Source of the DNA: Betaproteobacteria bacterium UKL13-2
Lineage (GTDB): Bacteria > Pseudomonadota > Gammaproteobacteria > Burkholderiales > Usitatibacteraceae
Length of the DNA stretch: 64,000 nucleotides
Assembly: GCA_001602455.1 (NCBI GenBank)
Contig: CP012157.1
Coordinates: 1,855,733 to 1,919,732 of the forward strand
Reading direction: 5' to 3'
Numbering within the stretch: the first letter of the stretch is position 1; each line of letters begins with the position of its first letter. Below the pieces are notes generated by a model. It worked only from the letters and a program-made list of their open reading frames with translations. It had not been told where the DNA came from and did not search any database. Both the position numbers and the translations under genes were made by a program. Below are positions 15,346 to 51,642 of the stretch, piece by piece.

Positions 15346-16101
15346 CTACAAGCCGCGAAATTGTGATTGGTGAGCGCGAGAGACCTCAATTTTGTCCGGC
15401 AATCCCTTTAGCTTAATGGTCATTTTCTCTGCCTCGTCGCGCACCGCGAGCTCGATACGCCTGACGTTGACAACAGTGCTGCGATGAACGCGCCAGAACA
15501 TTTCGGGGTCCAGCTCGGCCTCTAGCTCGGATAACGGCTTCCGAATGAAGGCTTCGCTATTCATGGTGACCAATCGCGTGTATTTGCTATCGCTTTGGAG
15601 GTAGGCAATTTCTTCGACCATGATAAATCGTACTTGCCTGCCAACACTGGCTTGGATGAACTTCAGATAGCCCGGACTTGCGCTGCTTGCCTGATTGAGG
15701 GCTCGCGCAACGCGCTTCGTGACCTCGTTGCTTGGCGTGTGATCGGCGAGCCGTTGCTTGAGGCGTTGCAGCGTCTTGGCGATACGCGTTAAGCGGATTG
15801 GCTTCAACACATAATCGATGGCACCTTGGTCGAATGCTTGAATGGCGTGGTCGTCAAATGCTGTGACAAACACGAGCATCGTGTTGCCTGAAATTTGCTC
15901 CGCCGCCTCCAGTCCAGTCATGCGCGGCATTTTGATATCAAGAAATGCGATATCGGGTTTATGCCGTTCGACTTCGTTCAGCGCTGTGACACCGTCAGCA
16001 CATTCGGCAACGATATTGAGTTCTGGCCAAAGCTCCTCCAGCGCGTCTCTAAGTTCATCGCGCAGCAGCGGTTCGTCATCGGCAATCACGGCGGTGGTCA
16101 C
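15346..16101 (-). CDS. LytTR-family response regulator
   Basis: A 251-residue response regulator: receiver domain (about 1-120, phosphoacceptor Asp 55 in FLDIKMPRMTG, KP near 100) and a LytTR DNA-binding domain (about 145-248, YLKFIQAS through VHRSTVVNVRRIE). It is the partner of the LytS-type kinase encoded upstream. Translation now starts at GTG 16101, preceded by a strong AAGGAG. A third copy of the same N-terminal sequence begins with an ATG that overlaps the kinase stop (ATGA at 16348-16351), which looks like the ancestral start. Two 125-bp tandem units now separate kinase and regulator. Confidence 0.9.
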   Translation of the reverse strand: MTTAVIADDEPLLRDELRDALEELWPELNIVAECADGVTALNEVERHKPDIAFLDIKMPRMTGLEAAEQISGNTMLVFVTAFDDHAIQAFDQGAIDYVLKPIRLTRIAKTLQRLKQRLADHTPSNEVTKRVARALNQASSASPGYLKFIQASVGRQVRFIMVEEIAYLQSDSKYTRLVTMNSEAFIRKPLSELEAELDPEMFWRVHRSTVVNVRRIELAVRDEAEKMTIKLKGLPDKIEVSRAHQSQFRGL

Positions 16102-16226
16102 AATTCCGCTCCTTCAAAATACGGCAGTCCCTGCATGGACTGCCGGCTCGGCTGGCACCAAGCCAAAACTGTTTGGCTTGGCGAAACCCCAGCCTCGCTG
16201 TCATCAGCAATCACGGCGGTGGTCAC
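16098..16226 (-). CDS. Minigene 2 of the tandem unit (42 codons, begins like the response regulator)
   Basis: GTG 16226 with AAGGAG upstream opens a 42-codon frame that starts with the regulator sequence TTAVIADD, then diverges (SEAGVSPSQTVLAWC). It stops at TGA 16098-16100, overlapping the GTG of the response regulator (GTGA). It may be a leader that couples regulator translation to the kinase rather than a functional peptide. Confidence 0.45.
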   Translation of the reverse strand: MTTAVIADDSEAGVSPSQTVLAWCQPSRQSMQGLPYFEGAEL

Positions 16227-16351
16227 AATTCCGCTCCTTCAAAATACGGCAGTCCCTGCATGGACTGCCGGCTCGGCTGGCACCAAGCCAAAACTGTTTG
16301 GCTTGGCGAAACCCCAGCCTCGCTGTCATCAGCAATCACGGCGGTGGTCAT
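16223..16351 (-). CDS. Minigene 1 of the tandem unit (42 codons, coupled to the kinase stop)
   Basis: ATG 16351 overlaps the kinase TGA (ATGA). The frame encodes MTTAVIADD followed by SEAGVSPSQTVLAWC and ends GLPYFEGAEL. Its TGA at 16223-16225 overlaps the GTG of minigene 2. The first nine codons are those of the response regulator, which suggests that a foreign 98-bp segment interrupted codon 10 of the regulator and a 27-bp stretch was duplicated. Confidence 0.45.
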   Translation of the reverse strand: MTTAVIADDSEAGVSPSQTVLAWCQPSRQSMQGLPYFEGAEL

Positions 16352-17478
16352 ATCTCGATATCTTTCATGTTCGTCTGTCGTTGTCGTGCTGGTATGGTGA
16401 GTGAGACAATCACCCCCCGCGGCGCGTTAGGCCCGATTTCGAGTGAAGCGTCGGCGCCATATAGGCTGGCCAATCGCTCGCGAATGTTGATCAACCCGAT
16501 ACCCATGCCCTTTGTGTTGGCGCGACCAAAGCCAATACCCGTATCGGATACACTCACTCGAAGTTGCTCACCATGCGGTGACACGATTATGTCTGCCGCG
16601 ATGAAAATTTCGCCAGGATCGGCAGACGGTTCAAGCCCATGCTTCACTGCATTTTCGACGAGCGTTTGTAACAGCATGGGTGGAAAAATGAGTTGTCCGG
16701 TGTCATCATTGAGTTGCAGGTTGTAACGAAGTCGGTCGCCCATGCGAATCTGCATGATCGATAGGTAGCTGGCCGATAGCGCGACCTCTCGTTCGAGCGT
16801 CGATTGGGCCTGACGCATTCGTGGTAAGGCGACATGGAGATAGTCACTCAAGTGATCCAACATCTCGCGTGCGCGATCACCGTCGCGCTTGATCAATGAG
16901 CGCACATTGGCGAGCGTATTGAGTAAAAAATGTGGCTCAATCTGCGCCTGTAGCAGCCGGAGTTGCGCCTCGGCGGCGTGTTTGGCACTCTCCTGTCGCT
17001 GGCGCTCCATGGCTTGTTGTGCATTTAGTGCGATTGCCCGCTCGGAGTGGGCAAAATCGCGAACCATCAGGGTGCCACAGGACAGCAAGCCAAAGGTAAG
17101 TGCGGGCCACCAATGCGGCAGTAAGAGCGACCATTGGAAGGTGCCCATCCCAATCGCTTTAAACCAGATGAGGCTGCCGATAAAGGCACCCGATGCGGAG
17201 CCGAGGACCAGCGCACCAACCGCTAGCCGAATTTCTGCGCGAGCACCCTTCCAGTAGTTGAGTAAGGTGAGCGCCGCCGTCGCAGCGGCGTAACCCAACC
17301 AGAGCTGGAATGCCATGAGCAGCCAGTCCTGGGCGGCGTACACATAAAGCATGGCACCCGCCAACAAGCCCACCAGGGTAGGCCAACGGAGCAACCCAGC
17401 GAGGGTGAATTGCGCCAGCATACCGCTGGGCGCCGCTGCTTGTGGCGCGACTAAATAGCGATATAACCATTGGTTCAT
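16348..17478 (-). CDS. LytS-type sensor histidine kinase
   Basis: A 376-residue inner-membrane kinase. About four hydrophobic segments lie in the first 140 residues, followed by a linker rich in Gln/Glu/Ala and the His_kinase domain of the LytS/YehU type with the phosphoacceptor His 183 in QIEPHFLLNTLANV. The ATPase part has the N-box LVENAVKHGLEP and G-box DTGIGFG, then GIGLINIRERL. No extracellular sensor domain is seen, so the membrane part or a partner must sense. The start ATG overlaps the stop of the upstream gene (ATGA), and its own stop overlaps the next ATG, so the three genes form one operon. Confidence 0.9.
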   Translation of the reverse strand: MNQWLYRYLVAPQAAAPSGMLAQFTLAGLLRWPTLVGLLAGAMLYVYAAQDWLLMAFQLWLGYAAATAALTLLNYWKGARAEIRLAVGALVLGSASGAFIGSLIWFKAIGMGTFQWSLLLPHWWPALTFGLLSCGTLMVRDFAHSERAIALNAQQAMERQRQESAKHAAEAQLRLLQAQIEPHFLLNTLANVRSLIKRDGDRAREMLDHLSDYLHVALPRMRQAQSTLEREVALSASYLSIMQIRMGDRLRYNLQLNDDTGQLIFPPMLLQTLVENAVKHGLEPSADPGEIFIAADIIVSPHGEQLRVSVSDTGIGFGRANTKGMGIGLINIRERLASLYGADASLEIGPNAPRGVIVSLTIPARQRQTNMKDIEI

Positions 17479-30568: not shown

Positions 30569-30682
30569 ATGAGATCGCCTCGCCTGTACACTTTATGGGG
30601 CGTGTATGGGGTAACTGCGGTGGGGCAACTGCGGTGGGGCAACTGCGGGGTAGTGGGCGCGGTGTACCGCCACCGCGACGTG
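30569..30682. other. Intergenic direct repeat
   Basis: Three near-perfect copies of the 14-mer GGGGCAACTGCGGT lie at about 30615-30655, between the methyltransferase-like gene and an FG-GAP remnant. Confidence 0.6.
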
Positions 30683-38245: not shown

Positions 38246-38264
38246 CGGAGAGCGGGAACCACCG

Positions 38265-39229
38265 GATGATTCGGCCACTCAACACGAACAAATCATCCCC
38301 CGCTCCCGCGGCGGCGGGAGCCCAATTTTGTTGGCCGAATTGTTGGCAGAACCAATCCCTCAACTTACAAGCGGATGAGATTCCTCGTCGCCCGAAGGGC
38401 TTGCGTCGGAATGACAAGCGGGGGCGAGGAGTTTCATACGGCAGAAACTGAATGTGGCATTACTTCACCACTTTGTAAAAGTGGGCGGTGAAACGCAATT
38501 ATCCGTCGCTGCGCAAAGGCAACCACCCCCCACGCATCGAACCACCCGAGCACCCATGCACCCACGCTGTCATTCCGACCGCAGCGTAGCGTAGCGGAGG
38601 AATCTGCTTTTCCATCCTCAACAGAAAATCCCTCGTGCAAGGCGCAGGCACAAACGGATGAGATTCCTCCTCGCCCGATGGGCTTGCGTCGGAATGACAA
38701 GCGGGGGCGGGGGTGCGAGGACACGCGGATGATTCAGCCACTCAACACGAACAAATCATCCCCCCGCTCCCGCGGCGGCGGGAGCCCAATTTGTTGGCAG
38801 AATTGTTGGCAGAAGCCACCCCTCAACTTACAAGCGGATGAGATTCCTCGTCGCCCGAAGGGCTCTGTCGGAATGACAAGCGGGGGCGAGGAGCCTCATA
38901 CGGCAGAAACTGAATGTGGCATTACTTCACCACTTTGTAAAAGTGGGCGGTGAAACGCAATTATCCGTCGCTGCCCAAAGGCAACCACCCCCCACGCATC
39001 GAACCACCCGAGCACTCATGCACCCATGCACCCACGCTGTCATTCCAACCGCAGCGTAGCGTAGCGGAGGAATCTGTTTTTCCATCCTCAACGGAAAATC
39101 CCTCGTGCAAGGCGCAGGCACAAACGGATGAGATTCCTCCTCGCCCGAAGGGCTTTCGTCGGAATGACAAGCGGGGGCGGGGGTGCGAGGACACGCGGAT
39201 GATTCAGCCACTCAACACGAACAAATCAT
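38265..39229. repeat. R2 array I: two tandem copies of a 463-470-bp composite unit plus a partial one
   Basis: Units start at GATGATTC on 38265, 38728 and 39198. Each contains GCTCCCGCGGCGGCGGGAGC (inverted repeat), ATTGTTGGCAGAA, AGCGGATGAGATTCCTCGTC, GCCCGAAGGGCTTGCGTCGG, CATTACTTCACCACTTTG, and a GTCATTCCGACCGCAGCGTA segment. The last phrase belongs to a widely seen bacterial intergenic repeat. The third copy is cut off by an IS1380-family element after AAATCAT. Open frames here are not genes. Confidence 0.9.
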
Positions 39230-40868
39230 CCTATTTCCGGCAGTTGACATTGCGTAAACCGGCTGCAAGCTAGACTAGACGCCAATTTCAATGGATTTAT
39301 TGGAGTCACCAAATGGGTGAAGCAAAAAGGCGTCAACTTGCTGTCCAAACGCAGGCACTGGAGGCCATGGTCGTGGATACGCCGGGCGGGCGAATTCATG
39401 TGAAGTGGGACCATGGTGCCAGCGCCACACCGAATGCACAGTTGACCTTCTTCTCCGAGTTCTTGGCCACCACGGGTGTGTACAGCTCCTGGGTCGATAG
39501 CTGCCCATTGACCTACACAAGCCCCAATGCACCCAGCAAACAGGATATCTTGGGCACATGGCTGCTGGCGATACTGGCAGGGCACAACCGCTACGCCCAC
39601 ATCACCGGGCTGCGCGGCGACGCGGTGAGCCCGCAGATTCTGGGGATGAAGAAAATCATCAGCGAAGACGCGCTGCGCCGCGCACTGTCGCGTATGAGCG
39701 CCGAGCAAAGCCAGGCCTGGCTTGCCCCCCAGCTCATGGGTAGTGTGCAAGCGGCACTGAGCACCCCTTGGATCCTGGATATCGACACCACCATCAAGCC
39801 GATGTTCGGAAAACAAAGCGGAGCTGAGGTCAGCTACAACCCACACAAACCCGGTCGCCCGAGCCACGCACTGCACACATACTGGGTTGGCAACCTGCGC
39901 CTGGTGCTGGATGTTGTCGTCTGCCCCGGCAAAGAGCACAGCGCGGCCAAAGCGCGGCCTGGTCTGATCAGCGTACTGGAAAAGCTCACGCCCCAGCAGC
40001 GTCCGGCCTTGGTCCGAGGCGACTGCGGCTTTGGCAACGAACCCTTTATCGCCGAGCTGGAGGAGCGAGACCAGCCCTACCTGTTCAAGCTGCGTCAGAC
40101 TGTGGGTGTCAAGAAATTATTGGCACGCCAATTCGCGCGTGATGACTGGAGCACACCCGGCCCCAGCGAGCAAGGCTGGAGCGCAGTCGAAGATACCCTC
40201 AAACTCTCGGGCTGGGACAAATCACGTCGGGTAGTGATCTTGCGGCGTGCCGTCAAAGCCGATTTGGCGCTGAGTCGAAAGACCAAGAACGAGCCGGGCG
40301 AGCAGATTGAGTTGCTGATGCCGGACAAGGATGTTCAGGTTTGGGAATACGCGGTGTTGGTGACAAACAGCGCCTACGCATTGGACGCGTTCGGTCAACT
40401 CTATCGGGACCGGGCTGACTGCGAGAACGGATTTGACGAGCTCAAAAATCAGTGGGGATGGGGTGGCTTCACGACCCAGGACATTGAGCGCTGCCAGACC
40501 AGTGCTCGCGCTGTAGCGCTGGTGTACAACTGGTGGTCCTGGTATTGCCGGGCGGCCAAGCCGGGTGCACGCATGGAAGCCATAACCAGCCGAGCGTTAT
40601 TGCTTGCCAGTGTGGGGCGCGCTGTCAAACATGCGGGACAGACAACGCTGTATCTGACGCCGATGCATGCTGCCAAGGACAAGTTGCTCGCGCTCATCGC
40701 CAACATTCGTGCGGCTTTAGGTCATGTCAGGGATATTGCGGAGCAGTTGCCTTTTACGGATCGATGGAAGACATTTCTGGACTACGTAGTGGCCAAAATC
40801 ACGCGCCCACTGCCACCTTGGCTACCGTCAGCCCAACTTACAGCGGCAGGGTAACTGCCGGATTTAGG
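39230..40868 (+). mobile_element. IS1380-family insertion sequence (about 1.64 kb)
   Basis: Inverted ends CCTATTTCCGGCAGTTGAC (left, 39230) and CCTAAATCCGGCAGTTACC (right, complemented, ending 40868). One transposase gene. It sits in an R2 unit, but instead of a short duplication, about 33 bp of R2 (ATGATTCAGCCACTCAACAC onward) appears on both sides with one difference (AAATCAT versus AAGTCAT). Confidence 0.88.
39313..40854 (+). CDS. IS1380-family transposase
   Basis: A 513-residue DDE transposase of the IS4/IS1380 group. The catalytic residues are Asp in WILDIDTTIKPMFG, Asp in LVRGDCGFGNE and Glu in ENGFDELKNQWGWGGFTTQD, the last being the signature of IS1380. The frame is intact from ATG 39313 (GGAG at 39302). 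The element may be active. Confidence 0.94.
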   Translation: MGEAKRRQLAVQTQALEAMVVDTPGGRIHVKWDHGASATPNAQLTFFSEFLATTGVYSSWVDSCPLTYTSPNAPSKQDILGTWLLAILAGHNRYAHITGLRGDAVSPQILGMKKIISEDALRRALSRMSAEQSQAWLAPQLMGSVQAALSTPWILDIDTTIKPMFGKQSGAEVSYNPHKPGRPSHALHTYWVGNLRLVLDVVVCPGKEHSAAKARPGLISVLEKLTPQQRPALVRGDCGFGNEPFIAELEERDQPYLFKLRQTVGVKKLLARQFARDDWSTPGPSEQGWSAVEDTLKLSGWDKSRRVVILRRAVKADLALSRKTKNEPGEQIELLMPDKDVQVWEYAVLVTNSAYALDAFGQLYRDRADCENGFDELKNQWGWGGFTTQDIERCQTSARAVALVYNWWSWYCRAAKPGARMEAITSRALLLASVGRAVKHAGQTTLYLTPMHAAKDKLLALIANIRAALGHVRDIAEQLPFTDRWKTFLDYVVAKITRPLPPWLPSAQLTAAG

Positions 40869-47640: not shown

Positions 47641-48480
47641 GAGGGAGATTTTTGTTGGCTAACTCGCGAAGGCAACCACCCCTCAACTTACAAACGGATG
47701 AGATTCCTCGTCGCCCGAAGGGCTCTGTCGGAATGACAAGCAGAGGCGATGGCTGCGCCGGGCGGGAGCCTAATTTTGTTGGCAGAAGCAATCCCTCAAA
47801 TTACAAGCGGATGAGATTCCTCGTCGCCCGAAGGGCTTGCGTCGGAATGACAAACGGTGGCGGGGGTGCGAGGACACGCGGATGATTCGGCCACTCAACA
47901 CGAACAAGTCATCCCCCCGCTCCCGCGCCGGCGGGAGCCCAATTTGTTGGCAGAATTGTTGGCAGAAGCAATCCCTTAACTTACAAGCGGATGAGATTCC
48001 TCGTCGCCCGAAGGGCTTGCGTCGGAATGACAAGCAGAGGCGAGGGATGCGCTGGGCGGGAGCCCAATTTGTTGGCAGAATTGTTGGCAGAAGCAATCCC
48101 TTAAATTACAAGCGGATGAGATTCCTCCTCGCCCGAAGGGCTTGCGTCGGAATGACAAGCAGAGGCGAGGGCTGCGCCGGGCGGGAGCCCAATTTTGTTG
48201 GCAGAATTGTTGGCAGAAGCCACCCCTCAACTTGCAAGCGGATGAGATTCCTCGTCGCCCGAAGGGCTCTGTCGGAATGACAAACGGTGGCGGGGGTGCG
48301 AGGACACGCGGGTGATTCGGCCACTCAACACGAACAAATCATCCCCCCGCTCCCGCGGCGGCGGGAGCCCAATTTGTTGGCAGAATTGTTGGCAGAAGCA
48401 ATCCCTTCACTTACATGCGGATGAGACTCCTCGTCGCTCGATGGGTTTGTGTCCGAATAGCAAGCGGAGGCCAGCCACGC
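47640..48480. repeat. R2 array II: six subunit copies of about 110-180 bp
   Basis: The core GGATGAGATTCCTCGTCGCC occurs at about 47697, 47810, 47990, 48114, 48241 and (with changes) 48420. Between cores are GGCGGGAGCCCAATTTGTTG, TTGTTGGCAGAAGCAATCCC and, twice, the GATGATTCGGCCACTCAACA segment that starts a long unit in array I. It lies between two divergently oriented minus-strand genes (nuclease promoter side and TonB receptor 3' side). Frames here are not genes. Confidence 0.9.
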
Positions 48481-51503: not shown

Positions 51504-51583
51504 TGGTATTAAAGTGGTACTAAAAATGGTACGAAAAATGGTACGAAAAATGGTACGAAAAATGGCACTAAAAATGCGATGAA
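51504..51583. repeat. 12-bp tandem repeat in the divergent TonB receptor-anmK promoter region
   Basis: About six degenerate copies of GAAAAATGGTAC, the central three being perfect. It lies between the TonB-dependent receptor (minus) and anmK (plus). Confidence 0.9.
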
Positions 51584-51642
51584 AACCCATCGTGCTAAGT
51601 TCGCTTAGCGACCAGCGAGGAGCCGCAAGGTTGAACCCTATT

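Follow-up and report, generated by a model that had tools for sequence, protein, structure and literature searches.

Mobile elements composed of two hairpins occur in mitochondrial genomes, and genomic islands that sit in tRNA genes come with a directly repeated gene end while the gene itself remains intact. PMC2229807 describes Rickettsia palindromic elements (RPE) as palindromic sequences of 105-146 bp that contain open frames and lie inside conserved protein genes. Correia/NEMIS, ERIC and YPAL are described there as small elements that are non-autonomous and have structured transcripts; some contain open frames and affect neighbouring mRNA, and YPAL is located near dyad symmetry (PMC2229807). 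For REP/REPIN sequences, PMC3733652 gives the tags GTAG or CGTC.

The DNA analysed here, referred to as the window, is a 64,000-nucleotide stretch of Betaproteobacteria bacterium UKL13-2 (contig CP012157.1, positions 1,855,733 to 1,919,732). On its minus strand, where all features named in this paragraph lie, is an operon whose upstream gene (16348..17478) encodes a sensor histidine kinase with matches to the His_kinase (PF06580) and HATPase_c domains, and whose downstream gene (15346..16101), with a GTG start, encodes a response regulator (RR) with matches to Response_reg and LytTR. Between the two are 125-bp units A (16227..16351) and B (16102..16226), which are identical at 124 of 125 positions and differ only at base 1, so that the 42-codon frame is led by ATG in unit A and by GTG in unit B; Tandem Repeats Finder reported a period of 125, 2.2 copies and 99% matches. 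Each unit begins with a repeat of RR codons 1-9 (T copy 1, 16325..16351; T copy 2, 16200..16226), and the second of these differs by one mismatch (26 of 27 nt identical) from the RR's own codons 1-9 (16075..16101). Both encoded peptides begin (M/V)TTAVIADD, in agreement with the shared start noted in the first-pass annotation of this DNA, and the minigene had no Pfam match. The remaining 98 bp of each unit, which we term element E (copy 1, 16227..16324; copy 2, 16102..16199), contain hairpin 1 (16275..16319 in copy 1, where it includes the conserved GGGGTTTCG segment; 16150..16194 in copy 2), hairpin 2 (16247..16271 in copy 1, with the loop ATGCAG; 16122..16146 in copy 2) and a Shine-Dalgarno-like tail, GAAGGAG (16234..16240 and 16109..16115). 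In both units, the gap from AAGGAG to the next start is 7 nt, which for copy 2 is the RR GTG. The hairpins have predicted folding energies of -27.7 and -17.5 kcal/mol, and the kinase/RR junction as a whole folds with z = -6.9 (0/100 shuffles equally stable), so the earlier description of each unit as carrying its own AAGGAG and two stable hairpins held for both. The proposed chain of stop/start overlaps was likewise present at all three joints: the kinase stop overlaps the ATG of unit A by 4 bp (ATGA, 16348-16351), the stop of unit A overlaps the GTG of unit B (GTGA, 16223-16226), and the stop of unit B overlaps the RR start codon (GTGA, 16098..16101). Kinase and RR therefore show the overlap expected of translational coupling, which in the window passes through the chained units. 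As unit B is a copy of unit A, its overlap is not independent evidence.

We found that the 98 bp beyond the copied RR start are a member of a family of mobile double-hairpin elements, E, rather than an insert private to one operon as first supposed. Exact patterns and BLAST of the 98 bp had given no other strong match in the window's genome (G000), and the hairpins were considered unique to this junction, hereafter locus a; covariance models overturned this candidate, and since they located further copies of E, we rejected the hairpins as a unique local feature. Searching 399 genomes of the order with a covariance model (R1) gave matches in 32 at an E-value of <= 0.1, including genomes of other families, although weak matches may be due to chance, and identified two further loci in G000, one at the start of a LytTR RR (locus c) and one at tRNA-Phe (locus d). 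A second model (R2), built from 20 rows, gave 91 matches at an E-value of <= 0.1 in 11 of 28 family genomes: 44 in G012, nine in G008, eight each in G000 and G010, six in G002, four each in G007 and G014, three in G009, two each in G001 and G006, and one in G005. R2 had no match in G003, G004 and G011, which belong to the same genus, nor in any of the 14 genomes of genera g2 and g4. In a sample of the phylum, 4 of 398 genomes matched at an E-value of <= 0.001, the window's genome included; for the order and phylum samples, filtering was stricter and few candidates were scored in each genome. Within the window, the model matches were the two known copies of E only. Several of the 44 matches in G012 lie, by eye, within other small palindromes, and the copies of that genome perhaps represent a burst of copying. 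Plasmids searched by blastn with the G009 unit gave no match, and viral contigs gave one exact 18-base match, around which the second hairpin was absent by eye. Rfam 15 had no match at gathering score in the window, and permissive hits on 16000-16450 were far under the cut-off. A literature search, partly with over-narrow queries and hence weak evidence of absence, found no description of E.

The two hairpins are conserved as structures. Across 96 matches (93 distinct rows), 93.5% of cells were paired versus 62.7% in shuffled alignments, and 666 double-change cells were counted versus 191, with 0/500 shuffles reaching the observed value; slid structures used as a control gave 32-45% paired. 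Fitting to the model biases this alignment towards it, whereas a 4-row MAFFT alignment and its RNAalifold structure predate any covariance model. Between locus a and a second junction, locus b, six of the 28 stem pairs have changed on both sides and two on one side, and none is broken. In the consensus of E, the left end reads GTGAG, GGGGTTTCG precedes the inner stem of hairpin 1, and the hairpin 2 loop contains ATGCAG. Base pairs are confined to the two separate hairpins, with none linking both ends, the exact ends of E not being fixed. The Shine-Dalgarno-like AGGAG is found in the tail at loci a, b and c. Since empty orthologous sites of locus c are without it, the AGGAG arrived with the insert. 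With dispersed copies, empty orthologous sites and a conserved fold, E has the properties of a small mobile palindromic element of the general kind.

We compared the window's junction with those of related genomes. The locus a operon was present in 3 of 12 genus-mates, with RR identities of 79, 79 and 60%. In G009 and G008, the kinase and RR are joined by a plain ATGA overlap with zero units, which is the arrangement that had been proposed as ancestral. In G007, the RR GTG is preceded by a single 41-bp unit that consists of a 24-nt copy of the RR start and 17 nt ending in AGGAGCGAAATT; this remnant has a 14-codon frame and a GTGA overlap with the RR, and the hairpins are absent. Locus a therefore carries two long units in G000, one short remnant in G007 and none in G009 or G008, and the units of G000 and G007 differ in length by 84 bp, which is divisible by 3. 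BLAST of the 98 bp against the 28 family genomes identified locus b, a second LytTR kinase/RR junction, in G007 and G009. G009 has a single unit of 124 bp there. G007 has two complete units next to a further one that is cut by the contig end, and another contig of G007 begins inside a unit directly before the RR. The units at locus b each copy the start of the locus b RR, not that of locus a. The kinases of the two loci are 40% identical and the RRs 46%, and the E sequences are far closer, with ~76% of E shared, the most alike pair among the RR loci. No orthologue of locus b was found among the G000 RR loci compared (identity at most 48%). Since orthologous sites are empty at loci a and c, the units were gained by insertion. 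The earlier proposal of insertion and tandem duplication fits the orthologous junctions, and the expected variation in unit number among relatives was seen at both loci, with at least two units in G007 against one in G009 at locus b.

In total, eight LytTR RR loci from seven genomes, one of the loci being degenerate, have E at codon 9-10: loci a and c in G000, locus b in G009 and G007, G001:C92, two at G008:C251, G006:C259 and G012:C4. In the G008:C251 pair, one copy is at the contig end, with its RR beyond the contig, and the other is degenerate (E-value 0.04). Pfam searches of the E-bearing loci, the window included, confirmed eight RRs and eight kinases, one HATPase_c being slightly under the cut-off. 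At locus c, E is present in G000 and the sites are empty in G007, G009 and G008, where the RRs are 90-91% identical. No kinase match was found on the G006:C259 contig, nor, by eye, in its ORF list of 3 kb. As no kinase was seen beside this RR, the target of E appears to be the RR start instead of the operon junction. By a rough estimate, ~0.1 copies would be expected at RR starts by chance versus the eight loci observed; the estimate assumes 27 RR genes of 150 bp per genome, where 27 is a scoring cap and not a count of LytTR genes. In a midpoint-rooted tree of E, made from short, structure-fitted sequences, the RR-type copies are scattered and their common ancestor spans 62 of 96 tips, and G012:C4 shares 86% identity with a copy that, by eye, lies away from an RR start. 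Since the RR-type copies are scattered on the tree, several independent insertions at one codon are likely, and repeated targeting is suggested. The site at G012:C44, in another gene, reads GATGAT/GAAC and resembles the RR site GATGAC/GAAC, which hints at a sequence preference of E insertion. Hairpin loops were considered as a general target and rejected, as several tRNA sites fit and the RR starts do not. Two E-like remnants that are not model matches, at G004:C205 and G009:C55, lie by eye upstream of RRs without a gene-start copy.

Copying of an adjacent gene end extends beyond the RR loci. For a test of flanking direct repeats, we used 90 copies: the 91 R2 matches, from which the second unit of the window and the truncated G007:C74 copy were removed, and one copy of G034; four were dropped for short flanks, and 86 were tested. 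A direct repeat with a score of >= 16 flanked 26 of the 86 copies, compared with 4 of 1720 places drawn at random from these loci (Fisher p about 2e-32, with tandem-array neighbours being non-independent). In 25 of these 26, the left repeat stops no more than 5 nt from the boundary of E used in the test; in the other, G006:C232, the distance is 30 nt. The repeats range from 16 to ~60 nt, the limit of the test, are usually a gene end, and in a few cases proved longer in a wider test. The other 60 copies had no flanking repeat at this threshold and so do not fit a fixed-length target-site duplication. The repeated segments include RR starts and parts of tRNA genes for Phe, Ala, Ser, Gly, Lys and Arg, and others are presumably 3' ends of protein genes, judging by protein similarity. 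Among the RR and tRNA genes checked, intact genes stand beside the copies of E, as tRNA genes found by ARAGORN or as full RR frames. At locus d (G000:C1:515400-515630), two tandem 145-bp units, each made of the 5' part of tRNA-Phe and E, are directly upstream of an intact tRNA-Phe gene. The 3' end of one protein gene, which we take to be ilvC, is hit at the same position in two genomes of different families (G008:C55:21743 and G034:C1:1477009) by copies of E with different sequences, and the gene end is repeated at each.

These features can be set beside those of known systems. The two mobile hairpins resemble the mitochondrial double-hairpin elements, which are found in other genomes and are not known to have gene-end repeats. 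Like tRNA-gene islands, E combines a gene-end repeat with an intact gene, but it is ~75-100 bp, has no integrase and is also found at gene starts. The classical MITE hallmark of a fixed-length target-site duplication was not observed. E shares with REP/REPIN sequences, which are mobilised by a RAYT transposase, the short palindromes, the many copies and some tandem arrangement. The REP/REPIN tags are GTAG and CGTC; by eye, most copies of E begin with GTGAG, and the locus b tail does contain GTAG. No E was found in the Y1 transposase loci searched: as a candidate mobiliser, Y1_Tnp was assessed at 30 of 38 loci in the genus, ~2.6 kb each, with 0 matches to E. IS200/IS605-type Y1_Tnp frames lie on G000:C1 at 48094, 401867, 734399, 919548, 932816 and 3096877, four of them of 247 aa. 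RPEs resemble E as small palindromic elements with open frames inside conserved genes (PMC2229807), but they become an in-frame part of the gene product, while E mostly ends its own frame beside an intact gene and read-through may occur at locus c and G001. The hairpin MITEs Correia/NEMIS, ERIC and YPAL are small and structured like E, whereas in E no base pairs join the two ends and its repeats are long, variable and restricted to a subset of copies.

The first-pass annotation had also held that insertion and duplication preserve an unbroken stop/start chain, and this stood in part. At four of seven loci (a, c, G001 and G012:C4), the window included, there is a 4-bp overlap between the end of the minigene and the RR start. 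At locus b, the stop begins 4 nt before the RR GTG, and at G008:C251 and G006:C259 it comes early; the minigene/RR overlap is therefore not general. On the kinase side, locus a has a 4-bp overlap and locus b has GTGA, whereas at locus c the kinase TAA is 5 nt before the ATG and does not overlap it. Read from the copied start codon, the frame closes no later than the RR start at a, b, c, G001, G006 and G012:C4. The RR's own frame also continues open upstream through E at two of them, c and G001:C92 (a 298-aa open frame, and a GTG-started frame of 296 aa at G001), where an N-terminally extended RR may conceivably be made. Over an 83-nt core of E in 79 copies away from RRs, counted from the model boundary and ignoring small indels, frames 0, 1 and 2 were open in 64, 16 and 57 copies and the reverse frames in 69, 64 and 69; the minigene frame is the one open in 57 of the 79. 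Since the frames of E are mostly open, no selection on the peptide is needed for an open minigene, and we rejected a peptide function because E is stop-poor in most frames and the minigene has no Pfam match. At a chance of p = 0.24 per locus, overlaps at four of seven loci have a probability of 0.06, or 0.02 for five of eight when the G007 remnant is included, both values being post hoc and from related loci. Because an open frame is for the most part a property of E itself, the overlaps do no more than suggest selection.

Taken together, we consider it very probable that the units are insertion products of a small mobile double-hairpin element that left a whole RR gene downstream and were later duplicated in tandem. 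The 98-bp E with its Shine-Dalgarno-like tail follows the ninth codon of a repeated RR start; as the first 27 nt of the RR are on both sides of E, the complete RR gene stays downstream. The RR-start fragment and E together form the 42-codon frame that finishes on the RR start codon. This unit would then have been doubled in tandem, the likeliest route being slippage or unequal recombination between its direct repeats. Ribosomes arriving from the kinase would traverse the minigenes in turn and initiate anew at every following start, aided by the tail of E, such that the regulator is still made, and the hairpins with the added termination and re-initiation would probably shift the kinase:RR ratio. 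The recurrence of E at codon 9-10 of LytTR RRs and at tRNA genes may reflect target preference together with the survival of insertions that spare the gene. A more specific and tentative version, which we think could be right but would not favour, is that E represents a new kind of non-autonomous element and homes replicatively to conserved gene ends (LytTR codon 9-10, tRNA arms and housekeeping 3' ends), copying the adjacent end so that the host gene is rebuilt at once, with the ribosome-binding tail giving rise, at regulator starts, to expandable chains of coupled minigenes.

It is also conceivable that the chained minigenes are a selected device, in which unit number and overlaps tune translation of the RR relative to the kinase and E has been domesticated. 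The variable unit number, the presence of E at RR starts far above the rough chance estimate, the 84-bp difference in multiples of three at locus a, and the overlaps at 4/7 loci (5/8 with the remnant) are all consistent with this. However, the same frame is open in most copies elsewhere and the overlap probabilities are post hoc; the overlap is missing at G008:C251 and G006:C259, a like architecture occurs at untranslated tRNA genes, and several orthologues of loci a and c are empty, and we therefore regard a selected device as unlikely. A comparably low probability attaches to site-specific integration by a tyrosine-recombinase-like enzyme, with the carried gene end serving as the attachment core as in tRNA-gene islands. 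Although this would suit the unbroken RR and tRNA genes that adjoin copies of E, the tRNA targets, the tandem arrays and the common 3' position in the presumed ilvC of two families with different E, it does not sit well with a repeat that varies by locus and is lacking from most copies, nor with a 98-bp element without an integrase gene.

Less probable still is a single ancestral insertion into a LytTR gene that spread by gene duplication, with the differences among loci arising as losses through direct-repeat recombination. The three orthologues of locus c with empty sites, the mixing of RR-type with other copies on the tree of E, and the far closer relationship of E than of the kinases and RRs between loci a and b argue against this, while the constant position at codon 9-10 and the ~76% likeness of the a and b units in E are what such a history would leave. 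An artefact of assembly would produce two near-identical 125-bp units, and the arrays of G007 and G008 are at contig ends, but the window's genome is one 3.39 Mb contig and diverged gene-start copies are present at G007 locus a, G007 locus b and in G008. Since related tandem units also occur elsewhere (G007, tRNA-Phe of G000 and G008), an assembly error is extremely improbable.

The insertion of E followed by tandem duplication changes how the junction is to be read, from an operon-specific duplication of minigenes to one case of a hairpin family entering gene ends while the genes stay whole. The E family accounts for the odd chained minigenes of a two-component operon, and a tiny hairpin element can evidently occupy needed genes without breaking them. 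Because one codon has been hit repeatedly, how a small non-autonomous element chooses its target becomes open to direct testing. That RR dosage is set by unit number, as suggested by the first-pass annotation, is a good hypothesis, for which the series of 0, 1 and 2 units provides a natural experiment on the kinase:regulator ratio.

Other repeats are present in the window. Two tandem arrays, at 38263-39231 and 47925-48283 (periods of 470 and 125 bp), have a common segment near GGGAGCCCAATTT and GTTGGCAGAATTGTTGGCAGAA and, by eye, no sequence kinship to the units containing E. Short tandem repeats are found at 51511-51585 (12-bp AAAATGGTACGA) and 30607-30648 (14-bp TGGGGCAACTGCGG).
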